Below the pieces are notes generated by a model. That model was not told where the DNA came from. It was given only the letters and a program-made list of their open reading frames with translations, and ran no database searches. Below are positions 21,785 to 63,874 of a stretch of 64,000 nt of DNA, piece after piece. Numbering within the stretch: the first letter of the stretch is position 1; every line of letters begins with the position of its first letter. Made by a program: the position numbers and the translations under genes. The stretch comes from Citrus sinensis (lineage: Eukaryota > Streptophyta > Magnoliopsida > Sapindales > Rutaceae): positions 5,810,001-5,874,000 of the forward strand of contig NC_068562.1 in NCBI RefSeq assembly GCF_022201045.2. Reading direction: 5' to 3'.

Positions 21785-23557
<1,773 letters not shown>

Positions 23558-43685: not shown

Positions 43686-46279
43686 ATGGATTCTCCAATC
43701 AAGGTGACTAGATCAACTAGTGTAAAAAATGGCGACATAGAGGTGCAAAGTTGGGCTTCATCATCTTCTAAATCCAGCAAGAATAAAATTTTCCCATTTA
43801 GTACTGCCTTATCAAGCTCTGTTCCACGTAATGATTCTATTACTAGCTCCTTGAAATCAAAGTTTGATAATGGCGTTTTCTTGACGTGGAAGGATCTTTC
43901 GGTTGTGGTTCCAAGTGGTAAAAAAGAAAATCGTAAACATGCAATTTTGCAAGAGCTGACAGGATATGTTGAACCAGGCCAGATATTAGCCATCATGGGT
44001 CCTTCTGGTTGTGGCAAGTCTACTCTTCTTGATGCACTAGCAGGTATTGTTGCAAATTTTTAACTTAAAATTAAGCTAAAAAGTTCATTTATTTTTCAAG
44101 TTTCATAAAAAAAAAGAACACTTACCTATATACTGAGACACACACTACACTGCAGGAAGGTTAAGTTCAAACACTGAGCAGACTGGGGAGATTCTTATCA
44201 ATGGTCGCAAAGAGACGCTTGCTTTTGGAACTTCGGTAAGAAAAAAAGTGAATAATATAATTGTATTAATGTTCGTTATACTTTCACCTAAACTAATAAT
44301 ATGTTATCGAATGTTTTCAAGATACATTTTAGATAATTTACTTATCATTATTTTTTTAATTATCTAGGCCTACGTGACTCAAGAAGACACTCTAATGACA
44401 ACATTAACAGTAATGGAAGCTATATACTATTCTGCACAGTTGCAGCTACCAGATTCCATGTCAAGATCTCAGAAGAGAGAAAGAGCTGAAATGACTATTA
44501 GAGAAATGGGATTACAGGACGCCATGGACACCAGAATAGGAGGATGGAACGTAAGAGGGATTAGCGGTGGACAAAAAAGAAGGGTTAGCATTTGCATTGA
44601 GATCTTGACATGCCCAAAGCTTTTATTCCTCGATGAGCCTACTAGCGGACTTGACAGTGCCGCATCTTACCATGTCATGAAGCGCATTGTTAATCTTGCC
44701 CACGAAGATGGAATAACTGTTGTTGCATCAATTCATCAACCTAGTAGTGACGTTTTTGAGCTCTTTCACAATCTCTGCCTTCTTGCCTATGGCAAGACAA
44801 TTTATTTTGGTCCTGCTTCAATGACAGAACAATTGTTTGCTTCAAATGGCTTTCCTTGTCCAAGTTTAAGAAATCCATCTGATCACTATCTAAGGACCAT
44901 TAATAAGGATTTTGAAGAAGTAAGTGATTATCTAGGAAATTAAAGAATGCTACGAAATATATACATAATTTAATTTGACAAACTTTTGTGTAAAATAGGA
45001 TATTGAAGAAGGAATTGGAAGAACAAGCACTGAAGAGGTTATCAACATTCTAGTCAATTCATACAAATCATCTGACACTTACAGTGAAGTTCAAGAACGA
45101 GTTTCTATAATATGCCAACATGTATGCACACATGTTTAGCAAATTTGATTTGATTAATTTTAATAACATGGTTAATATACTAAATTCGTTGTGCATGTAG
45201 AAGAGAGAAACTTTGGAGAAGGAAAACCAAGCTAGCTTTATCACTCAAAGCCTCGTTCTTACAAAGAGATCATTTGTTAACATGTATCGCGATTTAGGAT
45301 ACTATTGGCTTCGCTTTGCAATCTACATCGCCTTGGGTTTGTGTATAGGGACTATCTTCCACGATATTGGATCTAGTTATGGGTCAATTCAGGTAACTTT
45401 GGTGAAAGCTTAAATTTGCGCTTATGATGTTAAAAGGATTTTAACTTAATCTTTTATATTATGAATACTAGGCCAGGGGATCCATGCTCATGTTTATTGC
45501 AGCATTTTTGACTTTCATGGCGATCGGTGGATTCCCTTCTTTCGTGGAGGATATGAAGGTTTGTAATTTACAGTAGTCTAATTACTTTTAGCCACATGTG
45601 ACACATTTTAATTGACATTTTTTACTTCCTTTAGATATTTGGGCGAGAAAGGTTAAATGGGCACTATGGTGTTGCCTCATTTGTTCTTAGCAACTCATTT
45701 TCTTCTACCCCTTACTTACTCCTGATATCTTTGATTCCTGGAGCAATAGCATACTACCTAACTGGCCTTCAAAAGAATATTGGACATTTTCTATACTTTG
45801 TTTTGGAGCTTTTTGTATCCATGATGTTGGTTGAGAGCTTAATGATGATTGTTGCAAGCATAGTGCCAGATTTCCTCATGGGAATCATAACCGGCGCTGG
45901 AATTCAAGGAATTATGATGCTGAATGGAGGTTTCTTCAGATTGCCAAACGATCTTCCGAAGCCAGTTTGGAAATATCCTATGTACTATATTGCATTTCAT
46001 AGGTATACTTTTCAAGGATTCTACAAAAATGAGTTTGAAGGATTAACATTCCCTAATAATCAAGCTGGAGGGCCTCCAACAATCACTGGTAAAGAAGTCC
46101 TCACAAATATTTGGCAAGTTGATATGGGACACACCAAGTGGGTTGATCTTGCTATCTTGTTCGGAATGCTGTTTTTTTATCGGTTTTTGTTTTGGGCAAT
46201 TATTAAAACTACTGAGAAATTTAAACCTATTATCAAATCTTTTAGGTTTGTTTCTTTTAAGCCTTGTAGACAGATGTAG
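43686..46279 (+). CDS. ABCG half-transporter (PhABCG1/WBC11-like), copy 1, 678 aa
   Basis: Seven exons: 43686-44043, 44156-44235, 44368-44919, 44999-45121, 45201-45392, 45472-45558 and 45635-46279, all GT-AG and in frame. The nucleotide-binding domain comes first, as in the ABCG class: Walker [10 protein letters not shown], signature ISGGQKRR, Walker [14 protein letters not shown]-loop SIHQPSS. The membrane domain has about six helices, from [20 protein letters not shown] to [17 protein letters not shown], with the [11 protein letters not shown] loop typical of the cuticle/volatile ABCG group. Half-size ABCGs act as dimers at the plasma membrane and export lipids, cutin or wax precursors, or volatiles; the substrate here is not known. 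All catalytic motifs are intact. A second copy lies 18.9 kb downstream. Confidence 0.95.
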
Positions 46280-47963: not shown

Positions 47964-48712
47964 GTTTTTATTTCTTTAAACTATTTTTTTGTTGTTCCTT
48001 CTATCTCTTTTGAGTTTCCTGAAACTAAAACCTTTTGCATTAGTCGGTGAGGTTTTGTTGATCAATGATTGCTTAAATTTTTTATTTCGTAAAAGACTGG
48101 ATAAATTGTTCAACGTAAGTTTATGGTATGCCTCACGATGCTGTAATTTTTAATTCTTTTTTTGTTACTACAAGCTCCATGGAATCCTGACTGGATGGTC
48201 TATTGATTTAGTTGTTGTCAGATTGTAATAAGGACTTAATGACTCACCAACCACTAAACCTTACATTGCTTCAATATCAAATATGAGTTTCAAAACAAAT
48301 GATTACTGATACCACTATTTTTAGTTCTTCATTCACTCATCTCCATGGGTAAACTGATTCTAATATGTTCATCCCGCCAATCCTTGTTAATTGAATAGAA
48401 AAATTATCATTGACTATTTATTATTTTTAAATCTTAATTTGGGTATTAAATATATGTGTGCATATCGAGAAAATAATATATTAACACTACGAATTTAATT
48501 GAGGTCTATTTTGGTATTGATGAGAGTGTGTAAAGTAAAAGTTAAGTTTTTGAATTTATCAAAAAGTGTGCAAAGTAAAAGAGTGTCTAAAATATATTTT
48601 ATAGTACAAATAGCCTATTGTCTTATTTGATTTCAGTATGCATATGCATTTTTAAAAAATTATTTTTCAATACTAACATGTTAATGTCGCACCATCTGCT
48701 ATAGGACCAATG

Positions 48713-50066
48713 TGTTGAGTGTTAGAAAATGCATATTTATAAAGGAGAAAACCGTCATTTTACATTTCAAGTCTTACTAACAACCCTTACTTTTATGTAT
48801 TTAACATTCTTATGATTTAATTACGTGTGTTTTATTTTAATTAAGTAATTTATGTATTTTAGGGGCATTATAGTCATTTCACAATAAAGGAGAGATCAGA
48901 CGGCAAAACGGACATCACTTTTGAACTCAGGACGGTCGAAAACCTTAGGAGGAGCATAAAAGGAAAAATGGCACTATTCACATGTACGGTACTATTCACG
49001 TGTACGATACTGTATACGTTACTGTTCACGACACTGTTCACATAGACGGATGATGATGTGGCATTGACCGATGATGTGGCATTGACTGATGAGGTGTCAC
49101 GATCCTGTTGGACTAAAATTCTTATGTACTGTTGATGGTGACGTGGCAGCATATCAGTGGACGAAAAATCTCGCGTACGGTGCATGCATCACACAGGATT
49201 ATTTTCAACCAAACCGCGTTACTGTTCATCCGGGTCAAACCGTGTTACTGTTCATCCGCGTGGTCAAACCGTGGACTGTTGACTGATGACGTGGCGCAAT
49301 CCTGAGTGTCCAAACTGTTTTTAATCCGATGGCCATGATTTACTCCATGTATCTATAAAAAGGGGGCCTCCCCCCCCTAATTTGAGATCTCTGAATCCAT
49401 TTTTGGGATCCATTTTCTGTAATTCCCTCTCCATCTTGTATTTTCTTCGTATTTTAATAAATTTTCATTTTGCCCCTAGTTCAATTATGAGTGGCTAATT
49501 TTCTTTCAAGCTTGGGTTGAAGGTGAAGTCTCAACATGTGTCATGGGCTTAATTTGGTAAATTTATTTTCTCTTCCCCTCTAGTTTTTGTGGATGTTTTG
49601 ACTTCTCGTCGACAAATAATACTAATCTTGTCTAGTACCGCCTTGGTTACACCGGCCCTCTAGTACAAGGTTATTATTATTTGGCACGATAAGCCCTTAG
49701 CACCATATTGATTAGAGCGTGGTTCATGAGGTGTGGATTCCCCCCTCATGATTTAATTGGCATTAATACGGATTATTTAGCCCATGATGCATGTTGATAC
49801 GGATCTAGATACCCAAGTACGTCATTTCAATAGAATTCTCTTCAATTTATTCTCACCATTTCAATACCAATTTTAGAATTTATTCTCTCCATTTTAATTT
49901 AAGTTTTAGCATATTCCAATCATTTCCACCACAAATCCAATCACCCATTCACAAAATTAATTCTATACAATTAAAATCCACCTCCTCGTGGGATCGACAC
50001 TCGTCACCATAGATCTATACTACAATAGATTCGTGCGCTTGCGAGTACATTAAAATTTGCACAACA
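48713..50066 (+). repeat. Left LTR, 1354 bp
   Basis: TG...CA bounded. U3 contains short tandem units (GATGATGTGGCATTGAC twice or more; ACTGTTCA many times), a G-box CACGTG near 48998-49003 and TGACGTGG at 49139-49146 and 49286-49293. TATAAAAA is at 49354-49361, and AATAAA at 49456-49461 is a plausible poly(A) signal in R. The open frame on its minus strand (48874-49185) comes from the repeats, not from a gene. Confidence 0.96.
49354..49361 (+). promoter_or_regulatory. LTR TATA box
   Basis: TATAAAAA followed by a G/C-run, in mid-LTR and repeated in the right LTR at 60534. Suitable spacing to AATAAA at 49456 for a U3-R-U5 layout. Confidence 0.65.
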
Positions 50067-50072
50067 AGTTTT

Positions 50073-50090
50073 TGGCGCCGTTGCCGGGGA
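50073..50090 (+). other. Primer binding site, tRNA-Asp
   Basis: TGGCGCCGTTGCCGGGGA, starting six bases after the left LTR, is complementary to the 3' end of plant tRNA-Asp including CCA. This primes minus-strand DNA synthesis and is typical of Athila/Tat elements. Confidence 0.85.
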
Positions 50091-50453
50091 GGTAAGTAAT
50101 TTTAATTCATAGAATTAATTTTTGTGAATAATTTCTTTTATTTGTTTTCTTGTATTTTTTTTAATTATTAAAAAAAAGAAAAAGAAAAAAAAAGTGAATC
50201 TACATATAAAGGTTAGTATTTCTTTTCTTTTTCTCTTCTTTAAAATTCTGTAATTTAATTTTCAATTTATTTATTTTTTCTTTGTAATTTTTTTTTATTT
50301 TATTAATTTAATTTTTTTTCACGTATTTATTTTTGTGTATTTTTATAGAAAGGTTGTAATAGCGCAATAAGGTTAGTATTGTAATTTCTCTCTCTTCTTT
50401 ATTTTATTTGTATTTATTTTGTTCCATCTTCATTTTCATTTTATTTATTTTGC

Positions 50454-52046
50454 ATGCATGGTCGTAGGTCATTATTACCTAATCTTGAACCTATAGACCT
50501 TGAACTTGAGAAAACAATTCGCACACAAAAGCACATTAAAAATAAATTTGGAATGGATTTACAAGCACCACAGGAGAGGCCATTTAAGGACTATTTTAGT
50601 CCCTTAGCTAATTTGAGCACATCATGCATAAGATACCCAAATGTAGCTGCTAGGAGCTTTGAACTAAAACCTAGTGTGCTAAATTGTCTCCCCACATTCT
50701 ATGGCTTAGAAAATGAGGACCCATATAATCATTTGAATGATTTTCATGCTATTTGTCAAACATTTAAATATGAGAATTTTTCAGACGATGATGTTAAACT
50801 CAGATTATTCCCATTTTCTTTAAAGGATAGAGCTCGTTCATGGCTTAATACATTGCCTGCTAATAGCATTTCATCATGGGAACAAATGGTAACAAAATTT
50901 TTGAATAAATATTTCCCAGTGCATAAAACCAATGCTATTCGCAGGGAAATCTCGGAGTTTACCCAAAGAGAGGACGAGCAGTTTTTCGAAACATGGGAGC
51001 GATTCAATGGGCTACTCTTGAAGTGTCCACATCATGGATACGAGAAATGGCACCAATGCCAATACTTTTTGGAGGGATTACTACCAAATGTGCAAGAATG
51101 GCTAATGGCAACAAGTGGAGGAGAGCTAATGTCAAAAAGTGCATCAGAGATTTGGGAATTTTTCCAGCGACAAGCGGATAATTCCCAACAACGGAGTCGA
51201 TCACTCAGGAATACTAGAAGAATTAAAGGAGTGAATGAGGTTCAAATTGGCGAATCAAATTCAGAAATCAAAGAAGTCAAAGCGATAATTGAAGGTCTCT
51301 CTCGACAAATAGCATCGTTATCGACTGCTAAATCAACAGAGGCACATGACCATGACTCATACTCAGATCAAGCCAATGCCATAGGTGTAATGAGAAAACT
51401 ATCGAATTACAACCCATACTCCAACACATATAACCCTGGATGGAGAGACCACCCCAATTTTTCATGGTCTCAAGGATTCCAACAGAATGGACCAGCAGCT
51501 CCAGCTCCACCAATGCAACAAATTGCTCAAAATTCTCAAGCCTCTCAGCCCCCATTTAGACCATACAATCAAAACCAGAATTATTCTCAACCCAGACCAT
51601 GGGAGGATTCATTCCAGAATCTCAAGAATCTTACTCACTCCACGATTGAGCAACAGAACCGCACCATTGATGGACTACGAAATGAGTTGAGAGCAGGCTT
51701 CAACTCACAAGCTCAATCAGTTTCAAGCCTGGAGAAGATGGTGGGACAACTTGCTTCTTCAGTTCAGACCTTGGCAATGACCGTTGAGAAAGGTAAGTTT
51801 CCAAGTCAACCAGTGCCTAACCCTAAAGGAGTACATGAAGCAAGTACCAGTTCACCACAGCAGCATGGAGAGATCAAAGCAGTAATGACCTTGCGAAAAG
51901 GAAAGGAAATCGACAACAAAGTGGAGATGCCGGTGACAAAGAAAAATCAAATTGTACCTGTGAACGTTGAGGACTCACCACCGGAGGAGAGAGAAGAAGC
52001 CAACCTACGAGAATACGTTCCCAAAGCTCCATTTCCTCAGAGTTAG
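50454..52046 (+). CDS. gag: Retrotransposon gag, 530 aa
   Basis: Capsid-type retrotransposon gag domain at about residues 105-250: [62 protein letters not shown]. The C-terminal part is Gln/Asn/Ser-rich with a basic end. I see no CCHC zinc knuckle. The start is the first ATG in frame, about 390 bp after the LTR. The frame ends at 52046, while the pol frame opens at 52043 in another phase. In related elements gag and pol normally form one frame, so a one-base-type break, or less likely a programmed shift, separates them here. Confidence 0.93.
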
Positions 52047-55000
52047 CGAAAGGAAAAAAGGGAAAATCTACAGGTGAGATTCTCGAAATCTTCAAACAGG
52101 TAAGTGTTAACATCCCTTTACTTGATGCTATAAAGCAAGTTCCATCTTATGCCAAGTTTCTTAAAGATTTGTGTACTAAAAAGAGAAACATGCATGTTCA
52201 AAAGAAGGCATTTTTAACAGAAAACGTTAGTTCTATACTCCAACATAAAATTCCTTTAAAATGCAAAGACCCAGGCTCCCCCACTATCTCATGTAGTATA
52301 GGGAACCACACAATTGAGAATGCTTTGTTGGATTTAGGAGCTAGTGTAAATTTATTGCCTTACTCTGTGTTTGTGAAACTTGGACTGGGAGAATTACACC
52401 CAACTCCAGTGGTGTTACAACTTGCAGATCGGTCCACGAAAATACCTCGTGGTATTGTGGAGGACGTGCTTATCCAGGTAGACAAGTTTTATTTTCCTGT
52501 TGATTTCATTGTAATTGACACTCAACCAATACAGGATTCAAGGAAGCACATCCCCATTATTCTAGGCCGACCTTTCTTGGCAACTGCGGATGCTCACATT
52601 CAATGTAGGACCGGAAATATGCAATTGTCCTTCGGCAACATGACTATGGAGTTGAACATCTTCAACATTGCCAAACAACCTCACAATGCAGATGATGAAA
52701 TTGTTGATGTGGATTTAATAGAAGCATTAGTTGATGACACTTTTGTTTCAAACCTTAGTGATGATCCTTTACAGACATGCTTAACTCACTTTGGTTTTGA
52801 TTTTGATTTTGATATTGACAGATCGGTCGAAGAGGTCAATGCCCTACTTGACTCAGCACCATCTATGGACACTAATAAATGGAAGTCAAGAGTTGAACAA
52901 CTAGCACCATCAGAGAAGAAACTCATCCCATCATCAGAATCACCACCGAAACTCGAGCTCAAACCATTACCCAACACTTTGGAATATGCATTTTTGGGAG
53001 AAGAAAGTTCTCTGCCGGTAATCATCTCATCATCCCTCAATGATGAACAAAAAGGTAAGTTGTTGGATGTTTTAAAAGAGCACAAAGGAGCATTAGGATG
53101 GACCATAGCAGACATCAAAGGTATAAATCCAGTAGACTGCATGCATTACATTCACCTTGATGAAAATGCTAAATCTACTAGGGAAATGCAACGTCGGTTA
53201 AATCCTAATATGAAAGAAGTGGTTAGAACTGAAGTCCTTAAGCTATTAGATGCAGGTATCATTTACCCCATTTCTGATAGTTCATGGGTCAGTCCTATAC
53301 AAGTTGTCCCCAAAAAGTCAGGAGTCACAGTAGTTACGAATGCCGATAATGAATTGATACCAACTAGAGTAACTACAGGATGGCGTGTATGCATTGATTA
53401 TAGAAAATTGAATTCTGTCACACGTAAAGATCATTTTCCTTTACCATTTATCGATCAAATGCTTGATAGATTAGCAGGCCACGAATTTTATTGCTTTCTA
53501 GATGGTTACTCAGGATATAATCAGATTCCCATAGCACCAAAAGATCAAGAGAAAACTACTTTCACTTGCCCTTTTGGCACATTTGCATATAGGAGAATGC
53601 CATTTGGATTATGTAATGCACCTGCTACATTTCAACGATGCATGTTAAGCATTTTTTCTGATATGGTTGAACGATTCCTTGAAGTCTTTATGGATGACTT
53701 TTCTGTCTTTGGTGACTCGTTTGATCAATGTTTACATCATCTAACGCTAGTTCTGCAGAAATGTATCGAGAAGAATTTGGTCTTAAATTGGGAGAAGTGC
53801 CATTTTATGGTAAAACAAGGTATTGTCCTCGGTCACATCATTTCGAGCAAAGGTATTGAGGTGGACAAAGCCAAGGTGGATCTCATTTCTAATCTTCCTT
53901 CACCCAAAACAGTCAGAGAAGTAAGATCTTTCCTTGGGCATGCTGGTTTCTATAGACGTTTCATTAAAGATTTTAGCAAAGTTTCTAGACCCTTATACAA
54001 TTTACTTGCTAAGGATGTACCTTTTATCTTTAATGATTCATGTCTCATGGCGTTTGAAAAATTAAAACAATTGTTGACATCATCACCCATCATTCAGGCC
54101 CCAAACTGGAGCTTACCATTTGAGCTCATGTGTGATGCATCTGATTATGCAGTAGGAGCAGTTTTAGGACAAAGAGTTGATCGAATTCCTCATGTTATTT
54201 ACTATGCTAGTATGACATTGAATGATGCACAGTTGAACTATTCAACTACTGAAAAAGAAATGCTAGCAGTAGTGTTTGCATTGGAAAAATTTCGATCTTA
54301 TCTCATTGGTTGTAAAATAATTGTGTTCACAGATCATGCTGCTCTTAAATATCTTCTCACAAAGAAAGATGCAAAAGCTAGACTAATTCGTTGGGTGTTA
54401 CTTTTGCAGGAATTTGACTTGGAATTCAAAGATAAGAAAGGGTTAGAAAATGTTGTGGCGGACCATCTCTCTCGTCTTCACTTTGACACAATTACAGAGC
54501 CATTAATATTAAATGAGTCATTTCCAGATGAACAATTAATGAGTGTGGAAGTATTACCTTGGTATGCTGATATAGTTAATTATCTTGTTACAGGTAAACT
54601 TCCAGAGCATTGGACCAAGCAAGACAAGATCAAATTCTTTGCGGAAATAAAGAATTTCTTTTGGGATGACCCGTATTTGTTCAAGTATTGTGCAGACCAA
54701 ATTGTTAGACGATGTGTCCCAGAAAATGAAATTCAGAATATCCTTTCATTCTGCCATGAACAAGCTTGTGGAGGCCGTTTCAGTGCTAAGAAAACAGCGA
54801 CTAAAGTTTTACAATGTGGTTTCTATTGGCCAACACTATTTCGAGACGCTTACACTTTTTGTTCTTCATGTGATAGGTGTCAACGAATGGGGAGCATTAC
54901 ACGAAGGAACATGATGCCACTAAATCCAATTTTAGTGGTTGAGATTTTTGACGTATGGGGTATCGACTTCATAGGACCCTTTCCCCCTTCTTTTGGCCAT

Positions 55001-55855
55001 CAATACATATTGGTTGGTGTTGACTACGTCTCAAAATGGGTAGAAGCAATTCCATGTAGGACCAATGATCACAAGGTGGTGATAGCATTTTTGAAAAGCA
55101 ACATTGTTTCACGCTTTGGATTCCCACGAGCGATAATCAGTGATGGTGGTGCCCACTTTTGTAACAAAGCATTCAAAGCTCTTTTGACAAAGTATTCAAT
55201 CACACACAAAGTGGCGACCCCGTATCATCCGCAAACCAGTGGCCAAGTTGAGATCTCCAATCGAGAAATAAAGCACATATTAGAAAAAACGGTGAGGCCG
55301 GACAGAAAAGATTGGTCATTAAGACTTGATGATGCCTTATGGGCATATAGAACGGCTTTCAAGACCCCGATTGGGATGTCACCCTACAGGCTAGTGTATG
55401 GAAAAGCTTGCCACCTACCTGTGGAACTCGAACATCGTGCATATTGGGCCATCAAGAAGTTCAACTTTGATATGCAGCATGCCAGCTCAGAAAGAAGATT
55501 ACAACTGGCAGAACTTGAAGAAATTCGCAATGATGCATACGAAAATGCCAAGATTTACAAGCAACGAATGAAAGTCTTTCATGACAAGCACATTATGAGA
55601 AAATCTTTCACTCCAGGTCAGAAAGTGCTTTTGTTCAATTCTCACTTGCACCTATTCCCAGGTAAGTTACGCTCTCGTTGGTCTGGCCCATTTATTGTTC
55701 ATACTGTTTTTCCACATGGGGCAATTGAAATTAAGGACCCAAAGAACGGTGTCACGTTTAAAGTTAATGGTCAAAGATTAAAGCCATATCTAGAATACCA
55801 ACCACGTGGAGAAGACACCGAAATAAATTTGAGTGACCCACCAGATTTGAATTGA
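52043..55855 (+). CDS. pol: Retrotransposon pol: protease, reverse transcriptase, RNase H, integrase
   Basis: Open from 52043 (first ATG 52169, giving 1228 aa). Numbering from that ATG: aspartic protease [12 protein letters not shown] with Asp55; RT with [35 protein letters not shown] and the catalytic FMDDF (Asp509-Asp510); RNase H from about 650 ([24 protein letters not shown]); integrase zinc domain at 863-904; then [16 protein letters not shown] and VEISNREIK supplying the D,D,E triad; and the [11 protein letters not shown] tail. Oddity: the zinc domain should be HHCC, but position 870 is Arg in place of the second His (GGRF instead of GGHF). No internal stop. The polyprotein needs the upstream gag frame for normal expression, and that link is broken. 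Confidence 0.95.
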
Positions 55856-55983
55856 TTTTTTTTTCTTTCTTTTTGTTGATTTGATTTTGTTTTCTTTCTT
55901 TATATTATTCTTTTGCTAATTGAAATTGTTTTTGCATAAGTGTGTTTATTTTACCATTAAGTTTTCTCTTATCATTGTTAATC

Positions 55984-56217
55984 ATGAGTCTCATACTTAG
56001 GCCGTTCCTCCTGAACATTCTTAAACCACTTCAACGTGTCAAAACTCATCTCAAAAGGCAGATTCAATTTTGTAAAACACAACGCATTTGGGCTCTACAA
56101 CCACCAGAGTTAGTAGCCTATGTTGAGGGTTTAGAAAGCCAACTCAGAGACATTGAGAGAAGTGTTTACGACATCCAGTTGGAGCTTGAGGTAAATTCAA
56201 TAAGAGGACGATTTTAA
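55984..56217 (+). CDS. Extra ORF 1: small basic/helical protein, 77 aa
   Basis: Starts 128 bp after pol. From the ATG at 55984 the protein has a hydrophobic N-terminus (MSLILRPFLLNIL), a basic stretch (RVKTHLKRQ) and a likely amphipathic helix or coiled coil (VEGLESQLRDIERSVYDIQLELE). The frame is open upstream to 55942, where it would add more hydrophobic residues, so a spliced product with a fuller membrane anchor is possible. No family recognised. Its position is where Athila elements have env-like sequence. Confidence 0.55.
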   Translation: MSLILRPFLLNILKPLQRVKTHLKRQIQFCKTQRIWALQPPELVAYVEGLESQLRDIERSVYDIQLELEVNSIRGRF

Positions 56218-56358
56218 TTTTCTTTGTGTGTTTTAATTTGTTTTTCTGTTTGTGTGCTTTAGTTTGTTACCCCGGTGAAGTGGCGGATAACGGTACTCCG
56301 TGACAATCAAGTCGGTTACTTCAGTTTCCCATAATAACTGATATTCTGAGGCGAAGGT

Positions 56359-56805
56359 ATGGACAGAAACGAGATTCTAACGAAGCTTCACAAGCGATTC
56401 CCTTCACTTCCTCAGAATGCCCTCCTTACGATCTATAAAGCTCGGTCCGAACGCATGCGATTACTCATGAGAAATAACATACCTGCTGACATCCGTTGGT
56501 TAATCGAGGCTAAAGTACGATCGGCAGGTGAGTTACCTCCAAAATTTATTGCATACATGCCTGGTTGTGGTAAAGGAAATTATGCAAGAAAACGACGAGC
56601 TCGAAGAATTTCTGTTGCTTGTCATAAGTGTGCCAGAATGAGTTGCAATAAAAACCCATGTTCTTTAGGAATGATGTCTGATAACAGGGAAGATAAGATT
56701 CAATTCATTAGGGATGGCTTGAATAAGGAGTCATTGGATGATATCCTTTTGTCTCTTGAAACGCATCCCAGTGGATATGTGCAAGGAGTGATTCTCCAGT
56801 TATAG
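56359..56805 (+). CDS. Extra ORF 2: cysteine-rich basic protein, plant-virus NABP-like, 148 aa
   Basis: The ATG at 56359 opens an uninterrupted 148-codon frame. Residues 72-83 (GKGNYARKRRARR) form a basic, nuclear-signal-like patch directly before a compact cysteine cluster C88-x2-C91-x4-C96-x4-C101. The N-terminal 60 residues are helical (HKRFPSLPQNALLTIYKARS; NNIPADIRWLIEAK). This layout (helical N-part, YAR-basic patch, zinc-finger cysteines) recalls the small nucleic-acid-binding proteins at the 3' end of carlavirus genomes, whose cysteine spacing is however wider. Likely role, if any: nucleic-acid binding or silencing suppression for the element. Resemblance is from memory and needs a profile search; convergence is possible. 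Confidence 0.6.
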   Translation: MDRNEILTKLHKRFPSLPQNALLTIYKARSERMRLLMRNNIPADIRWLIEAKVRSAGELPPKFIAYMPGCGKGNYARKRRARRISVACHKCARMSCNKNPCSLGMMSDNREDKIQFIRDGLNKESLDDILLSLETHPSGYVQGVILQL

Positions 56806-57239
56806 CCATTATTCCAGAAAGAGCATGTACGATATAGTCTCGGGAATCTGACTATAAACGACCCTGTTTGCCTGTTTATAAGAAAACTGGATGGGAAGCC
56901 TATCCTCGACCCATAGAGGGCGTTCAAGCCGTTTCTGGACGTAAAACCAGAGGAAGATGTGAGCCACAGTCGCAACTACGTGTAAATATCCTTTTACTTT
57001 ACTGTTATTTTATTTCATTTCACTGTTGTTTTATTGTTTGCATTATTGTCTTTAATAATTTTATTACTGTTTGCTTTTTCCTTTTTACTGTTTTCTTTTT
57101 GACTCGTGAGCCATGTGCTTCATGCGTTATTTGACACTAACATGTTACCTCATTCACAGCTGTGACCTACTATCACCAAGACTCTTAAATGTGATTTCTT
57201 TTGTCAAACACTCACAAATTGTTTTTGAGAAATATTCCA
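56806..57239 (+). other. Leader between extra ORF 2 and the LOG-like ORF
   Basis: About 430 bp. The first 190 bp read as mixed, coding-like sequence (for example PVYKKTGWEAYPRP at about 56870) but with stops in phase, then a T-rich tract (56985-57120) of intron-like composition ending in CACAG at about 57156-57160. A splice joining upstream sequence to the LOG-like frame is possible but not shown. Confidence 0.4.
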
Positions 57240-57908
57240 ATGGCAGCTACTCCCAATAGACAATTCAAGAACATTTGTGTGCTTTCTGGATTTACCTATG
57301 ACAAACATAAAGAGTTCGTTGAGGCAGCCATAGATCTTGGTCGAAGCATAGCAGCGAGAAATTTACATTTGGTGTATGGAGGAGGTAACCGAGGGTTATC
57401 AAAAATGGTCTCCGAAGCAGCTTTTATCAGAGGAAGTCAAGTGTTAGGCATCATCCCAAGAGTCCTAAAACCATTGGGCAGTTCGTCTGACTCATCAACT
57501 GGAGAAGAGTTAGTCGTCTCAGGTATGCAAGAAAGAATAACTGAAATGCTTAATCATGCTGATGCTTTTGTTTTCCTTCCAGGAGATCTTGCAACACTAG
57601 AGGCACTTATGACACTAGCATCTTGGGCCCATCTACACATTCACCAGAAACCCATCGGTTTGTTAAATGTCAATAACTTTTATGATGGCTTTATCGCATT
57701 TCTTAACCATGCAATAAAAAACTATTTCATTCCCGCTAATGTGAAAAAACTCTTTATTTGTGCTCACACTGCTAATGAGCTACTGGATCTATTACAAGCT
57801 TATAGACCGGAGCCAGACCCCTGGACCTTTGTGTTGGAGCGTCCAAATAATGATGGTAACAGTAGCAGCAGTAAGAAGTACAAATTAGATTTAACTCTCC
57901 GCCTGTAA
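57240..57908 (+). CDS. Extra ORF 3: LOG-like (cytokinin riboside monophosphate phosphoribohydrolase fold), 222 aa
   Basis: The ATG at 57240 opens a full-length frame of normal LOG size. The Rossmann-type fold is clear along its whole length: FKNICVLSGF, EAAIDLGRSIAARNLHLVYGGGNRGLSK (phosphate loop, 44-54), VLGIIPRVL, MQERITEMLNHADAFVFLPG, TLEALMTLASWAHLHIHQKPIGLLNV, and YDGFIAFLNHAI. LOG enzymes release active cytokinin bases from their nucleotides. The catalytic motif PGGxGTxxE is altered to PGDLATLEA (114-122), losing two glycines and the last Glu; Arg99 in the MxxR segment is kept. It may thus be catalytically dead yet folded and possibly dimer-forming. It carries a unique basic C-terminus (NSSSSKKYKLDLTLRL). 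No introns, unlike host LOG genes, as expected for a gene carried through an RNA stage. Confidence 0.85.
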   Translation: MAATPNRQFKNICVLSGFTYDKHKEFVEAAIDLGRSIAARNLHLVYGGGNRGLSKMVSEAAFIRGSQVLGIIPRVLKPLGSSSDSSTGEELVVSGMQERITEMLNHADAFVFLPGDLATLEALMTLASWAHLHIHQKPIGLLNVNNFYDGFIAFLNHAIKNYFIPANVKKLFICAHTANELLDLLQAYRPEPDPWTFVLERPNNDGNSSSSKKYKLDLTLRL

Positions 57909-58090
57909 ATATTTTCTTCTGTGTTGCACCACCCAGGTGATGTCTTCTAAACTCTACTTCTTTCATTTCAAACATTGAGGACAATGTTTCGTTCTGGTTG
58001 GGGGGAGGGAATAGTCGACAATTGTGAAATTTTGGTTAAGTTTTTACTAATTTTTTGTTGTAGAAACTAACTGTTGCTAACTTTTTGTGT

Positions 58091-58322
58091 TGAAGATGGC
58101 TGAATATGGAGTGTAGTTACTCTAGAAACGCATCTTCATTGTTTGAAAAAAAAATTCAAAAAAAATAAAATAAAATAAAAAAATTCAGACATTTTCTTTT
58201 TCTTTATTATGTGTTTATGTTTATTTTTCTTCTTTAATTTCTCCTCTATAAATATACATTTTCCAACTTTTGAGTCGAAGATGGCTGAATATGGAGTGTA
58301 GTTCCTCTAGAAACGCATCTTC
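58091..58322 (+). repeat. 47-bp direct repeat in the retrotransposon 3' region
   Basis: GAAGATGGCTGAATATGGAG plus GTGTAGTT.CTCTAGAAACGCATCTTC-like sequence occurs at 58091-58137 and again at 58276-58322, differing at about two positions. Each is followed by an A-run. Confidence 0.85.
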
Positions 58323-58953
58323 TTTTAAAAAAAAAAAAAAATCATTTTCGTTTTCTATCATTTTACGTGTAACTTTTCTAATTAGTTTTTATACATCATT
58401 TTCACATTTCTGCATGCATATTTTCCTTTCATGTTTAGAATAGGTTGGGGGGTAGAATGATGTTTAAAAAAAAGAAAATGTGTGATTTGTTTTAACATTG
58501 GATGACATGATTAATTTCAAATTTTAGTATTTGTATTATCTTTGGTCTTAAGTGATGTTACGCTATGTTTGCTACTTTACATGTTGATGTCGGAGACAAA
58601 TGTGAGTTGCTTGAAGGAATGAACATGTCATAATAAGTGCCAAGTGAGTTGTTGAGCCTATCATTTTCTTGGAGAGTAACCCTTTTGCCCATTCTCTATA
58701 CAGCTTAGCAGTTTATTATTTTATACACGATCTCTAGATTTCTTTTGAGTTAACCCTTTAAAAAAAAAATGGTAAAATTAAAAAAAAAAGAAAAAAGAAA
58801 AAAATGTGTGTTACTACATTGGGAGGCCCATCTAACTAGTAGATATGGATAATTATTTAGAGCCCTAAAAGATGATGGAAAGGCCATCTTTGATCCGTTT
58901 GAGCCTTTCTAGCCATCCCTGTTATTAAATATCCATAGTTACCCCTTTTGAGC

Positions 58954-58994
<41 letters not shown>

Positions 58995-59852
58995 TCTTTG
59001 TCAACTTATCATCTTGACCCACTCCGATTTGGAGTATTACCCAATGTCTTTTAAGTCTCATCCCTATTTATGTTTGAGAAAATGTAAATAATTATGTTGT
59101 TCAGTGAAGTTATGCCAAATAAAAGCAAAAAAAAAAAAAAAACAAAACAAAACAAAACAAAAGTTGTTGTTTCAAAAGAATAAAAATAACAATAATAGGT
59201 GAAATCCACCTTGCAACTTCCAAAAAAAAAAAAATCTGTATTTTTCTCAAACATACACTTTGTTTTCCTTATTTCCTTTCTTTGTTAGCCATATCCCTAG
59301 CCTACGTTACGTCCTAATAAAAGTCCTTCTTGATTTTAGGGAACTATAGTTTGAAGTAGAAGCTAGTTATATGGGCTAAAAAGATGTAGTGATGCATAAT
59401 TAAAAAAAAAAAAAGATAAATAAAGTGGGTTGACTAACATTTTATTTGACTTGAGATCGTATTATTTCTAAGCTGAGGGCATATTTATTTCATCTTGGTG
59501 AGAGCATGTGATATCACTTCTTTATTATTTTCTCTCTCAATTACCATTCATTGGAGTGACTATTTTTATTGGGATTAATTTATTTGTGAGAGTGTCACTA
59601 CTTCCAGTGAGATTTTGGGGTTTGACATGTCATTCTTGAGAGTAGCTAAAACAAAGTCTACTGGGCTAATTCATGTGGATGGTTGATGTGGGTGTGATGT
59701 TGCTTTAGACTGGAGATAATACTTATACTTTTATTTGATTGCTATCATTAATCTGATGGAATAAATACGAGTGTTTCTATTAAAACAAAAAAAAAATTAT
59801 TTTGAATTTGAATTTTGTTTTCGCTTTATTTGCTAGGGACTAGCAATAAGCT

Positions 59853-59864
59853 GGTTGGGGGGTG
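59853..59864 (+). other. Polypurine tract (plus-strand primer site)
   Basis: GGTTGGGGGGTG stands directly before the right LTR, the expected place for plus-strand DNA priming. Confidence 0.8.
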
Positions 59865-61246
59865 TGTTGAGTGTTAGAAAATGCATATTTATAAAGGAGA
59901 AAACCGTCATTTTACATTTCAAGTCTTACTAACAACCCTTACTTTTATGTATTTAACATTCTTATGATTTAATTACGTGTGTTTTATTTTAATTAAGTAA
60001 TTTATGTATTTTAGGGGCATTATAGTCATTTCACAATAAAGGAGAGATCAGACGGCAAAACGGACATCACTTTTGAACTCAGGACGGTCGAAAACCTTAG
60101 GAGGAGCATAAAAGGAAAAATGGCACTATTCACATGTACGGTACTATTCACGTGTACGATACTGTATACGTTACTGTTCACGACACTGTTCACATAGACG
60201 GATGATGACGTGGCATTGACCGATGATGTGGCATTGACTGATGAGGTGTCACGATCCTGTTGGACTAAAATTCTTATGTACTGTTGATGGTGACGTGGCA
60301 GCATATCAGTGGACGAAAAATCTCGCGTACGGTGCATGCATCACACAGGATTATTTTCAACCAAACCGCGTTACTGTTCATCCGGGTCAAACCGCGTTAC
60401 TGTTCAAAGTCGGGTCAAACCGTGTTACTGTTCATCCGCGTGGTCAAACCGTGGACTGTTGACTGATGACGTGGCGCAATCCTGAGTGTCCAAACTGTTT
60501 TTAATCCGATGGCCATGATTTACTCCATGTATCTATAAAAAGGGGGCCTCCCCCCCCTAATTTGAGATCTCTGAATCCATTTTTGGGATCCATTTTCTGT
60601 AATTCCCTCTCCATCTTGTATTTTCTTCGTATTTTAATAAATTTCCATTTTGCCCCTAGTTCAATTATGAGTGGCTAATTTTCTTTCAAGCTTGGGTTGA
60701 AGGTGAAGTCTCAACATGTGTCATGGGCTTAATTTGGTAAATTTATTTTCTCTTCCCCTCTAGTTTTTGTGGATGTTTTGACTTCTCGTCGACAAATAAT
60801 ACTAATCTTGTCTAGTACCGCCTTGGTTACACCGGCCCTCTAGTACAAGGTTATTATTATTTGGCACGATAAGCCCTTAGCACCATATTGATTAGAGCGT
60901 GGTTCATGAGGTGTGGATTCCCCCCTCATGATTTAATTGGCATTAATACGGATTATTTAGCCCATGATGCATGTTGATACGGATCTAGATACCCAAGTAC
61001 GTCATTTCAATAGAATTCTCTTCAATTTATTCTCACCATTTCAATACTAATTTTAGAATTTATTCTCTCCATTTTAATTTAAGTTTTAGCATATTCCAAT
61101 CATTTCCACCACAAATCCAATCACCCATTCACAAAATTAATTCTACACAATTAAAATCCACCTCCTCGTGGGATCGACACTCGTCACCATAGATCTATAC
61201 TACAATAGATTCGTGCGCTTGCGAGTACATTAAAATTTGCACAACA
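59865..61246 (+). repeat. Right LTR, 1382 bp
   Basis: Same ends as the left LTR. It is 28 bp longer because of an extra tandem unit (around 60391-60420, with ACTGTTCAAAGTCGGGTCAA). By eye it has four substitutions against the left copy; one turns GATGATGTGG into GATGACGTGG and adds a third TGACGTGG site. Confidence 0.96.
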
Positions 61247-61251
61247 CAATG

Positions 61252-62596: not shown

Positions 62597-63874
62597 ATGG
62601 ATTCTCCAATCAATGTGTCAAGATCAACTAGTGCAAAAAATGATGACTTAGAGGTGCAAAGTTGGGCTTCATCATCTTCTAGATCCAGCAAGAATAAAAT
62701 TTTCCCATTTAGCACTGCCTTATCAAGCTCTGTTTCACGTAATGATTATGTTGCTAGCTCCTTGAAATCAAAGTTTGATAATGGCATTTTCTTAACGTGG
62801 AAGGATCTTTCGGTTGTAGTTCCAAGTGGTAAAAAAGAAAATGGAAAACGTGCAATTTTGCAAGAGCTGACCGGGTATGTTGAACCAGGCCAGATATTAG
62901 CCATCATGGGTCCTTCTGGTTGTGGCAAGTCTACACTTCTTGATGCACTGGCAGGTATTGTTTCAAATTTTTAACTTAAAATTAAACTGAGAATATAATT
63001 TCTTTTTCAAGTTTTCCCTAAAAAATAAAAAATAAAATCACTTAGCTACGTACTAAGACACACACTATATTGTAGGAAGGTTAAGTGCAAACACTCAGCA
63101 GACTGGGGAGATTCTAATCAATGGTCGCAAAGAGATGCTTGCCTTCGGAACTTCGGTTAGAAAAAAGTGAAATAATACTATTGTATTAATGTTCATTATA
63201 CTTTCACCTAAAATAGTAATATGTTATTGAATGTTTTAAAGACACATCTTAAATAATTTACTTATTATTATTTTAAAAATTATTTAGGCCTATGTGACTC
63301 AAGAAGATATTCTGATGACAACATTAACAGTAATGGAAGCTATATACTATTCTGCACAACTGCAGCTGCCAGATTCTATGTCAAGATCAGAGAAGAAGGA
63401 AAGAGCTGAAATGACTATTAGAGAAATGGGATTACAAGATGCCATGGACACTAGAATAGGAGGATGGAACGTAAAAGGAATTAGCAGTGGACAAAAGAGA
63501 AGGGTTAGTATTTGCATTGAGATCTTAACACGCCCAAAGCTTTTGTTCCTCGATGAGCCTACTAGCGGGCTTGACAGTGCCGCATCTTACCATGTTATGA
63601 AGCGTATTGTTAATCTTGCTCGCGAAGATGGAAGAACTGTTCTCGCATCGATTCATCAACCTAATAGTGACGTTTTTGAGCTCTTTCACAATCTCTGCCT
63701 TCTTGCTTATGGGAAGACAATTTATTTTGGTCCTTCTTCAATGGCAGAACAATTGTTTGCTTCAAATGGCTTTCCTTGCCCAAGTTTGAGAAATCCATCC
63801 GACCACTATCTAAGAATTATCAATAAGGACTTTGAAGAAGTAAGTGATTATCTAAGAACTTAATGAATGTTATG

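Follow-up and report, generated by a model that had tools for sequence, protein, structure and literature searches.

Extra open reading frames (ORFs) are common in plant LTR retrotransposons, and their roles are mostly unknown. Within Ty3/gypsy, the Athila lineage, a member of the OTA superclade, is described as carrying extra sense-strand ORFs after pol (Neumann et al. 2019, PMC6317226). According to PMC9289625, which cites Steinbauerova et al. 2011, gypsy consensus sequences from Citrus sinensis and C. clementina contain a YgdH (LOG) domain, and the same holds for Populus trichocarpa when one filter is switched off; this paper also describes orchid gypsy elements that carry an AlkB domain, which is reported to be functional (PMC9289625). 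The presence of a LOG domain in Citrus gypsy elements is thus already published; what we add is evidence for selection, for capture from a plant, for loss of the active site, for an EAR-type tail, and for a CRP-type neighbor. In the element described here, the extra ORF is a recognizable host hormone gene that appears to be under clear selection and to have a disabled active site. In the open-licence PMC literature, we found nothing on lost catalysis, selection, an EAR tail or a CRP neighbor of a retrotransposon LOG.

Three other described systems bear on this element. In CgLOG, whose residue numbering we follow, Arg99 and Glu122 have been proposed to act in catalysis; phosphate binding falls to the loop Gly116-Ala117-Gly118-Thr119, and Lys100 and Glu121 contribute to the binding of adenine. 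Ala replacement of the active-site residues, except Ser19, nearly abolished activity (PMC4979012). CgLOG is a dimer, and its active site is formed by the dimer pocket (PMC4979012). HaRxL21, a downy mildew effector, binds TOPLESS through a C-terminal EAR motif (PMC7446885). Roles in the suppression of silencing and in pathogenicity are described for viral CRPs, and the CRP of chrysanthemum virus B is described in addition as a transcription factor that causes hyperplasia (PMC12172455).

The window analyzed here is a 64,000-nucleotide stretch of Citrus sinensis DNA, and it contains a complete young Ty3/gypsy LTR retrotransposon (positions 48713-61246) that carries a LOG-derived frame, hereafter retro-LOG (Table 1). 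As expected of Ty3/gypsy, the element has LTRs, a target-site duplication, a primer binding site-like sequence (TGGCGCCGTTGCCGGGGA, putatively of the tRNA-Asp type), a polypurine-like tract (GGTTGGGGGG), and gag followed by pol domains in the order PR-RT-RH-INT. A Pfam scan did not find a second RNase H in pol, and extra ORFs lie on the sense strand between pol and the 3' LTR; based on this negative search and these ORFs, the element fits the Athila type within the OTA superclade. The window copy is damaged, which the initial annotation had not noted: gag and pol lie in different frames, although the LOG frame is whole. Intact relatives exist; in many of the other copies listed, gag-pol is a single open frame of about 1820-1835 aa. 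The zinc-finger ORF is also short in the window (148 aa, versus 185 aa in 28 of 30 loci of subfamily A, defined below).

Table 1. Positions of element features within the window
Feature	Position	Strand	Description
Target-site duplication CAATG	48708..48712 left, 61247..61251 right	.	two sides identical, 5 bp
5' LTR	48713..50066	+	1354 bp, TGTTG...CAACA
Primer binding site-like TGGCGCCGTTGCCGGGGA	50073..50090	+	
gag frame	50454..52046	+	530 aa, PF03732
pol open frame	51971..55855	+	protease, RT, RNase H, integrase
Small sense ORF	55984..56217	+	77 aa
C4 zinc-finger protein, viral CRP/NABP type	56359..56805	+	148 aa here
LOG-derived protein (retro-LOG)	57240..57908	+	222 aa, open frame
Altered catalytic loop PGDLATLEA (canonical PGGxGTxxE)	57579..57605	+	
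C-terminal LDLTLRL, EAR-type LxLxL motif	57885..57905	+	
Polypurine-like tract GGTTGGGGGG	59853..59862	+	just 5' of 3' LTR
3' LTR	59865..61246	+	1382 bp

Antisense inside gag, at 50937-51040 on the minus strand, the sequence matched Rfam snoR71 with 42.5 bits (cut-off 40); this match possibly reflects retroelement sequence inside the Rfam family. Outside the element, two copies of a repeat that are 87% alike lie on either side (44000-44404 and 62597-63863), and the right copy sits in an ABC transporter gene. The 3' LTR ends ~1.35 kb upstream of the next ORF. Elsewhere in the window, a minus-strand frame at 21785-22387 resembles, by eye, a fragment of a class III plant peroxidase.

Retro-LOG belongs to the LOG family. 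It matched Pfam PF03641 (E 3.5e-28) and TIGR00730 (125 bits; cut-off 96), and its best PDB match was At2g37210 (2a33; E 7e-45), followed by another Arabidopsis protein, At5g11950; the initial annotation had considered that the domain might align better with a non-LOG family, and Pfam, TIGR00730 and PDB all returned LOG. With these matches, the LTRs and the target-site duplication all present, its account of an intact 222-residue LOG-fold ORF inside an LTR element is borne out, as are the kept VYGGG motif, the kept Arg99 and the change of the catalytic motif to PGDLATLEA. The frame had also been called intronless; it is indeed continuous, whereas three citrus host LOG loci align exon-wise in several pieces.

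We searched the genome (299.7 Mb, 11 contigs) with the protein as query. The best 150 of 2107 candidates, a biased top slice, were all 96-100% identical over at least 221 of the 222 residues and had no internal stop, which disposes of the possibility, raised at the outset, that no other copy has the frame. A second query (best 150 of 2106 candidates) reached two more groups. Copies of subfamily B were about 81-99% identical to this query, many of them with stops, and those of subfamily C were about 78-81% identical and mostly open. Overall, related copies number several hundred in this genome and fall into at least three subfamilies (A, B and C). An exact 21-mer coding for LDLTLRL occurs 825 times in the genome, versus 0 times for the reversed control. 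Contig C1 contained 14 of the best 150 hits to the pol C-terminus, and 13 of these 14 had a LOG or tail match downstream at the expected distance, a count for which the upstream control is fair for tail places only; when LOG places alone were counted, 9 of 14 pol hits had one downstream and 0 of 14 had one upstream.

Between the two LTRs of the window copy there are four substitutions and a single 28-bp indel, which corresponds to an insertion age of about 0.11-0.21 million years at substitution rates of 1.3e-8 and 7e-9. Three other copies, with a 5-bp duplication at each, have 7, 0 and 0 LTR substitutions. Based on these counts and duplications, the family was mobile very recently, and the existence of copies with substitution-free LTRs makes the role of retro-LOG testable. 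Among the best 120 of 756 database homologues, the named rows were all from Citrus x changshan-huyou. In this set, the name cytokinin riboside 5'-monophosphate phosphoribohydrolase is borne by many Citrus proteins that closely match the transposon ORF. Such names are probably automatic, and proteins that are named LOG enzymes but derive from a transposon would distort counts of the LOG gene family in Citrus.

The origin of retro-LOG was assessed with a maximum-likelihood tree of 58 rows: 9 retro proteins, 17 plant rows and 32 bacterial rows (30 of 80 bacterial loci and two PDB sequences). In this tree, for which no root was inferred and in which the bootstrap was not fully settled, the retro proteins form one clade (100/100), and the retro and plant rows split from the bacterial rows (97/96). 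This affinity to plant LOGs agrees with the earlier proposal that the element captured a host LOG gene. The retro stem is long (1.89), and the best tree joins the retro clade and Arabidopsis LOG8 without strong support. Retro-LOG is 39% identical to Pseudomonas LOG versus 37% to Arabidopsis LOG3; a bacterial origin, which the former value might suggest, was rejected because the tree splits off the bacterial rows. Two scans of viral contigs found no relative. Because retro-LOG groups with plant rather than bacterial proteins and is missing the host introns, its capture probably proceeded through spliced plant RNA.

The initial annotation described the retrotransposon as young. This holds for the insertions, as judged by LTR substitutions of 4, 7, 0 and 0, but not for the capture, which would be older than the subfamily split unless the LOG module passed between subfamilies later. 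Synonymous divergence between A and B/C was undefined or 3.6 in pol; for LOG it was 0.75-0.80, and for the zinc-finger ORF 0.95-1.16. This contrast may be a mosaic signal of exchange of the 3' module between element lineages.

We compared active-site residues in an alignment of 120 retro, 120 host and 80 bacterial rows. The proposed catalytic Glu122 is Glu in all 120 host rows and in 78 of 80 bacterial rows (one Gly, one gap), whereas it is Glu in none of the 120 retro proteins (Ala in 107, Thr in 6, Asp, Ser, Gly and Val in 1 each, gap in 3). Gly116, Gly118 and Lys100 are likewise invariant in 120/120 host and 79/80 bacterial rows (one gap). In the retro proteins, position 116 is Asp in 115/120 (gap in 3), position 118 is Gly in 0/120 (Ala in 106, gap in 4), and position 100 is Ile in 106/120 (Lys in 1, gap in 12). 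Asp at position 116 was seen in 0 of the 79 aligned bacterial rows, although the scan pattern allowed Asp. The 33 open genomic copies, drawn from A, B and C, all have Asp116, Ala118 and Arg99, and residue 122 is Ala in 31 and Thr in 2. Retro-LOG therefore has neither the PGGxGTxxE motif with its catalytic Glu nor the Arg-Lys pair (R99, K100) of functional LOGs. At the same Glu, two PDB chains of one LOG, 5zbk and 5zbj, carry different residues; the Ala in 5zbk was presumably engineered. Since active-site residues are replaced in all three subfamilies, retro-LOG is very probably not a phosphoribohydrolase. The suggestion that the element biases hormone state by making cytokinin is accordingly unlikely, as the proposed catalytic Glu and three more conserved active-site residues are replaced nearly everywhere.

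Using the Nei-Gojobori method, we calculated dN/dS from open copies with frames of the expected length only (33 LOG and 38 zinc-finger frames from 68 loci). Between subfamilies, dN/dS of LOG was 0.178 (A-B), 0.212 (A-C) and 0.228 (B-C) at dS of 0.57-0.80, and dN/dS of the zinc-finger ORF was 0.223 (A-B), 0.250 (A-C) and 0.304 (B-C). Within subfamilies A, B and C, the values were 0.09, 0.50 and 0.35 for LOG and 0.57, 0.85 and 0.26 for the zinc-finger ORF; we give these little weight because protein similarity guided the choice of A copies and some B copies are decaying. In neutral simulations with d 0.37 per lineage, about half the A-C synonymous divergence, 49 of 20000 frames remained open and mean identity to the starting sequence was 47%; with d 0.285, 129 of 20000 remained open. 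The A and B retro-LOG proteins are 75-77% identical. The low dN/dS between subfamilies, the rarity of open frames under neutrality, and an identity of 75-77% versus 47% argue that retro-LOG has been kept by selection. Selection had been raised as a possibility at the outset, with neutral decay (dN/dS near 1) as the stated alternative; the values of 0.18-0.23 between subfamilies fit the former and are far from 1. Selection would act most simply through the propagation of the element itself. Retro-LOG thus appears to be a selected pseudoenzyme, in which Arg99 and the fold are kept and the active site is dismantled.

The C-terminus of retro-LOG differs from those of the host proteins. An EAR-type motif is defined by LxLxL, a pattern that LDLTLRL matches. 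LxLxL occurs within the last 20 aa of 87/120 retro proteins versus 0/120 host LOGs, the latter being LOG1/LOG3-like only and the best of a longer list. Among the 33 retro proteins lacking it, 25 end elsewhere (most are evidently cut-short gene models) and 8 have a variant of the tail; among open genomic copies, 32 of 33 end with LDLTLRL. In the 22-column linker that precedes the last 12 codons, dN is 0.30-0.41, whereas the 13 copies compared all share LDLTLRL. The last 12 codons have dN of 0.155 (A-C) and 0.165 (B-C), not lower than that of the core (0.148 and 0.109), and in the neutral simulation with d 0.37, LxLxL survived in 4396 of 20000 lineages (22%). Given a motif this short, its neutral survival and a dN not below that of the core, conservation of the tail is by itself weak evidence. 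The tail also has few synonymous changes, which could point to a role of the nucleic acid.

Upstream of retro-LOG, the zinc-finger ORF encodes a protein that combines a basic stretch with a C4 finger, which in most relatives is spaced C-x2-C-x4-C-x3-C. Xanthoceras, Acer and Populus also have relatives, with 55-73% identity in the aligned sets. Of 25 family members, 24 matched Carla_C4 and 23 matched Viral_NABP with E of 0.01 or better; the Carla_C4 score was 16.5 bits for the A copy and 20.9 bits for the C copy (Pfam cut-off 20.9). The AlphaFold model of this protein is poor (mean pLDDT 53). The aligned part of the 77-aa ORF is free of stops in 30/30 A loci; the ORF is recognizable in 22/30 B loci, of which 9 have stops, and it had no significant Pfam match. 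Read from its GT..AG context, a possible intron at 56191-56262 would continue this ORF to 92 aa by splicing. T-rich, plant-intron-like GT..AG stretches lie before both larger frames (56981-57159 before the LOG frame, and 56191-56262 before the zinc-finger frame), which suggests spliced mRNAs. The 3' part of the element holds up to three conserved accessory proteins.

In the interpretation that we prefer, an Athila-type Ty3/gypsy lineage in Citrus would have taken up a plant LOG through spliced RNA; the captured protein would have lost its catalytic residues and come to bear a C-terminal EAR-type motif, and selection would keep it as an accessory protein that acts by binding, not by catalysis. 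We consider this interpretation probable, if by no wide measure, and we infer the binding mode from sequence. The most likely mode would be that the LOG-fold dimer presents its LxLxL tails to co-repressors of the TOPLESS type, or titrates these co-repressors, and host transcription would consequently be altered where the element is expressed; in a second mode, retro-LOG would pair with host LOG. The adjoining CRP-type zinc-finger protein probably counters silencing, which would make the 3' part an accessory cassette that targets the host. More tentatively, such a cassette might combine a CRP-type silencing suppressor with a LOG pseudoenzyme whose dimer serves as sensor or scaffold and whose EAR tails redirect TOPLESS; together, the two would shift both silencing and cytokinin output in those dividing cells that contribute to the germ line. 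We regard this fuller version as doubtful; if it is true, a plant transposon carries effector-like proteins resembling viral and oomycete ones.

A decoy or dominant-negative role had been left open by the initial annotation; a role of that kind is now favored, together with the EAR-type tail, which that annotation had not mentioned. In its strict form, the retained dimer surface of retro-LOG would pair with host LOG and lower or redirect cytokinin activation, and the tail would be incidental. In CgLOG, which acts as a dimer, the pocket of the dimer is the active site (PMC4979012). The core of the retro-LOG fold is conserved (dN about 0.11-0.15 versus dS 0.57-0.79), and the catalytic residues are lost; however, 37% identity between retro-LOG and Arabidopsis LOG3 makes heterodimers uncertain, and a tail shared among copies is left unexplained. 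We judge this form unlikely.

Still less probable, in our view, is that retro-LOG is a changed enzyme or a nucleotide-binding protein whose pocket takes another nucleotide or ligand. Several pocket residues are mostly kept (Arg99 in 99/120 retro proteins, with Ile in 7, Lys in 2 and gap in 12; Thr119 and Glu121 in 114/120 each), and the new residues Asp116, Ala118, Ile100 and Ala122 are largely conserved across subfamilies. However, the proposed catalytic Glu is gone, and Ala at active-site residues of CgLOG nearly abolished activity (PMC4979012).

That the captured frame is a passenger, carried without function, seems very improbable. Recent insertions may be open simply through youth, and many subfamily-B copies have stops, but open copies also occur in subfamilies whose dS from one another is 0.57-0.80 and whose dN/dS is about 0.2, and neutral frames seldom stayed open (49/20000 with d 0.37; 129/20000 with d 0.285). 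That retro-LOG is an active enzyme producing cytokinin and stimulating cell division is scarcely credible despite the LOG family membership, the kept Arg99 and the phosphoribohydrolase names in databases, as almost every copy has changes at four conserved active-site positions and the names are probably automatic.

Taken as a selected pseudoenzyme that would act by binding, retro-LOG can be set beside the described systems. Like LOG enzymes (PF03641, TIGR00730), it has the family profile, the length, VYGGG, Arg99, Thr119, Glu121 and an affinity to plant proteins; unlike them, it is without Glu122, has Asp for Gly116, Ala for Gly118 and Ile for Lys100, and combines an EAR-type tail and the lack of introns with carriage by a mobile element. 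Like HaRxL21, it is a non-host protein with a C-terminal EAR-type motif; however, HaRxL21 is not described as a LOG-family protein, and its binding to TOPLESS was demonstrated (PMC7446885), whereas such binding by retro-LOG is predicted from the motif. The zinc-finger ORF shares the basic stretch and C4 finger with viral CRP/NABP proteins (Carla_C4, Viral_NABP), but it has longer conserved flanks, and its Citrus A members score below the Pfam cut-off.

Among transposable elements, the YgdH-carrying gypsy consensus sequences very probably represent the same kind of element as the one in the window; PMC9289625 reports the presence of the domain, and we found no mention there of lost catalysis, selection, the tail or the zinc-finger neighbor. 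The orchid AlkB elements are likewise gypsy elements with an acquired conserved enzyme domain; however, AlkB is reported to be functional, whereas the LOG here is without catalytic residues (PMC9289625). As in Athila as described in PMC6317226, no second RNase H was found, and extra sense ORFs lie between pol and the 3' LTR; unlike those of Athila, the extra ORFs here would encode a CRP-type protein and a LOG pseudoenzyme.
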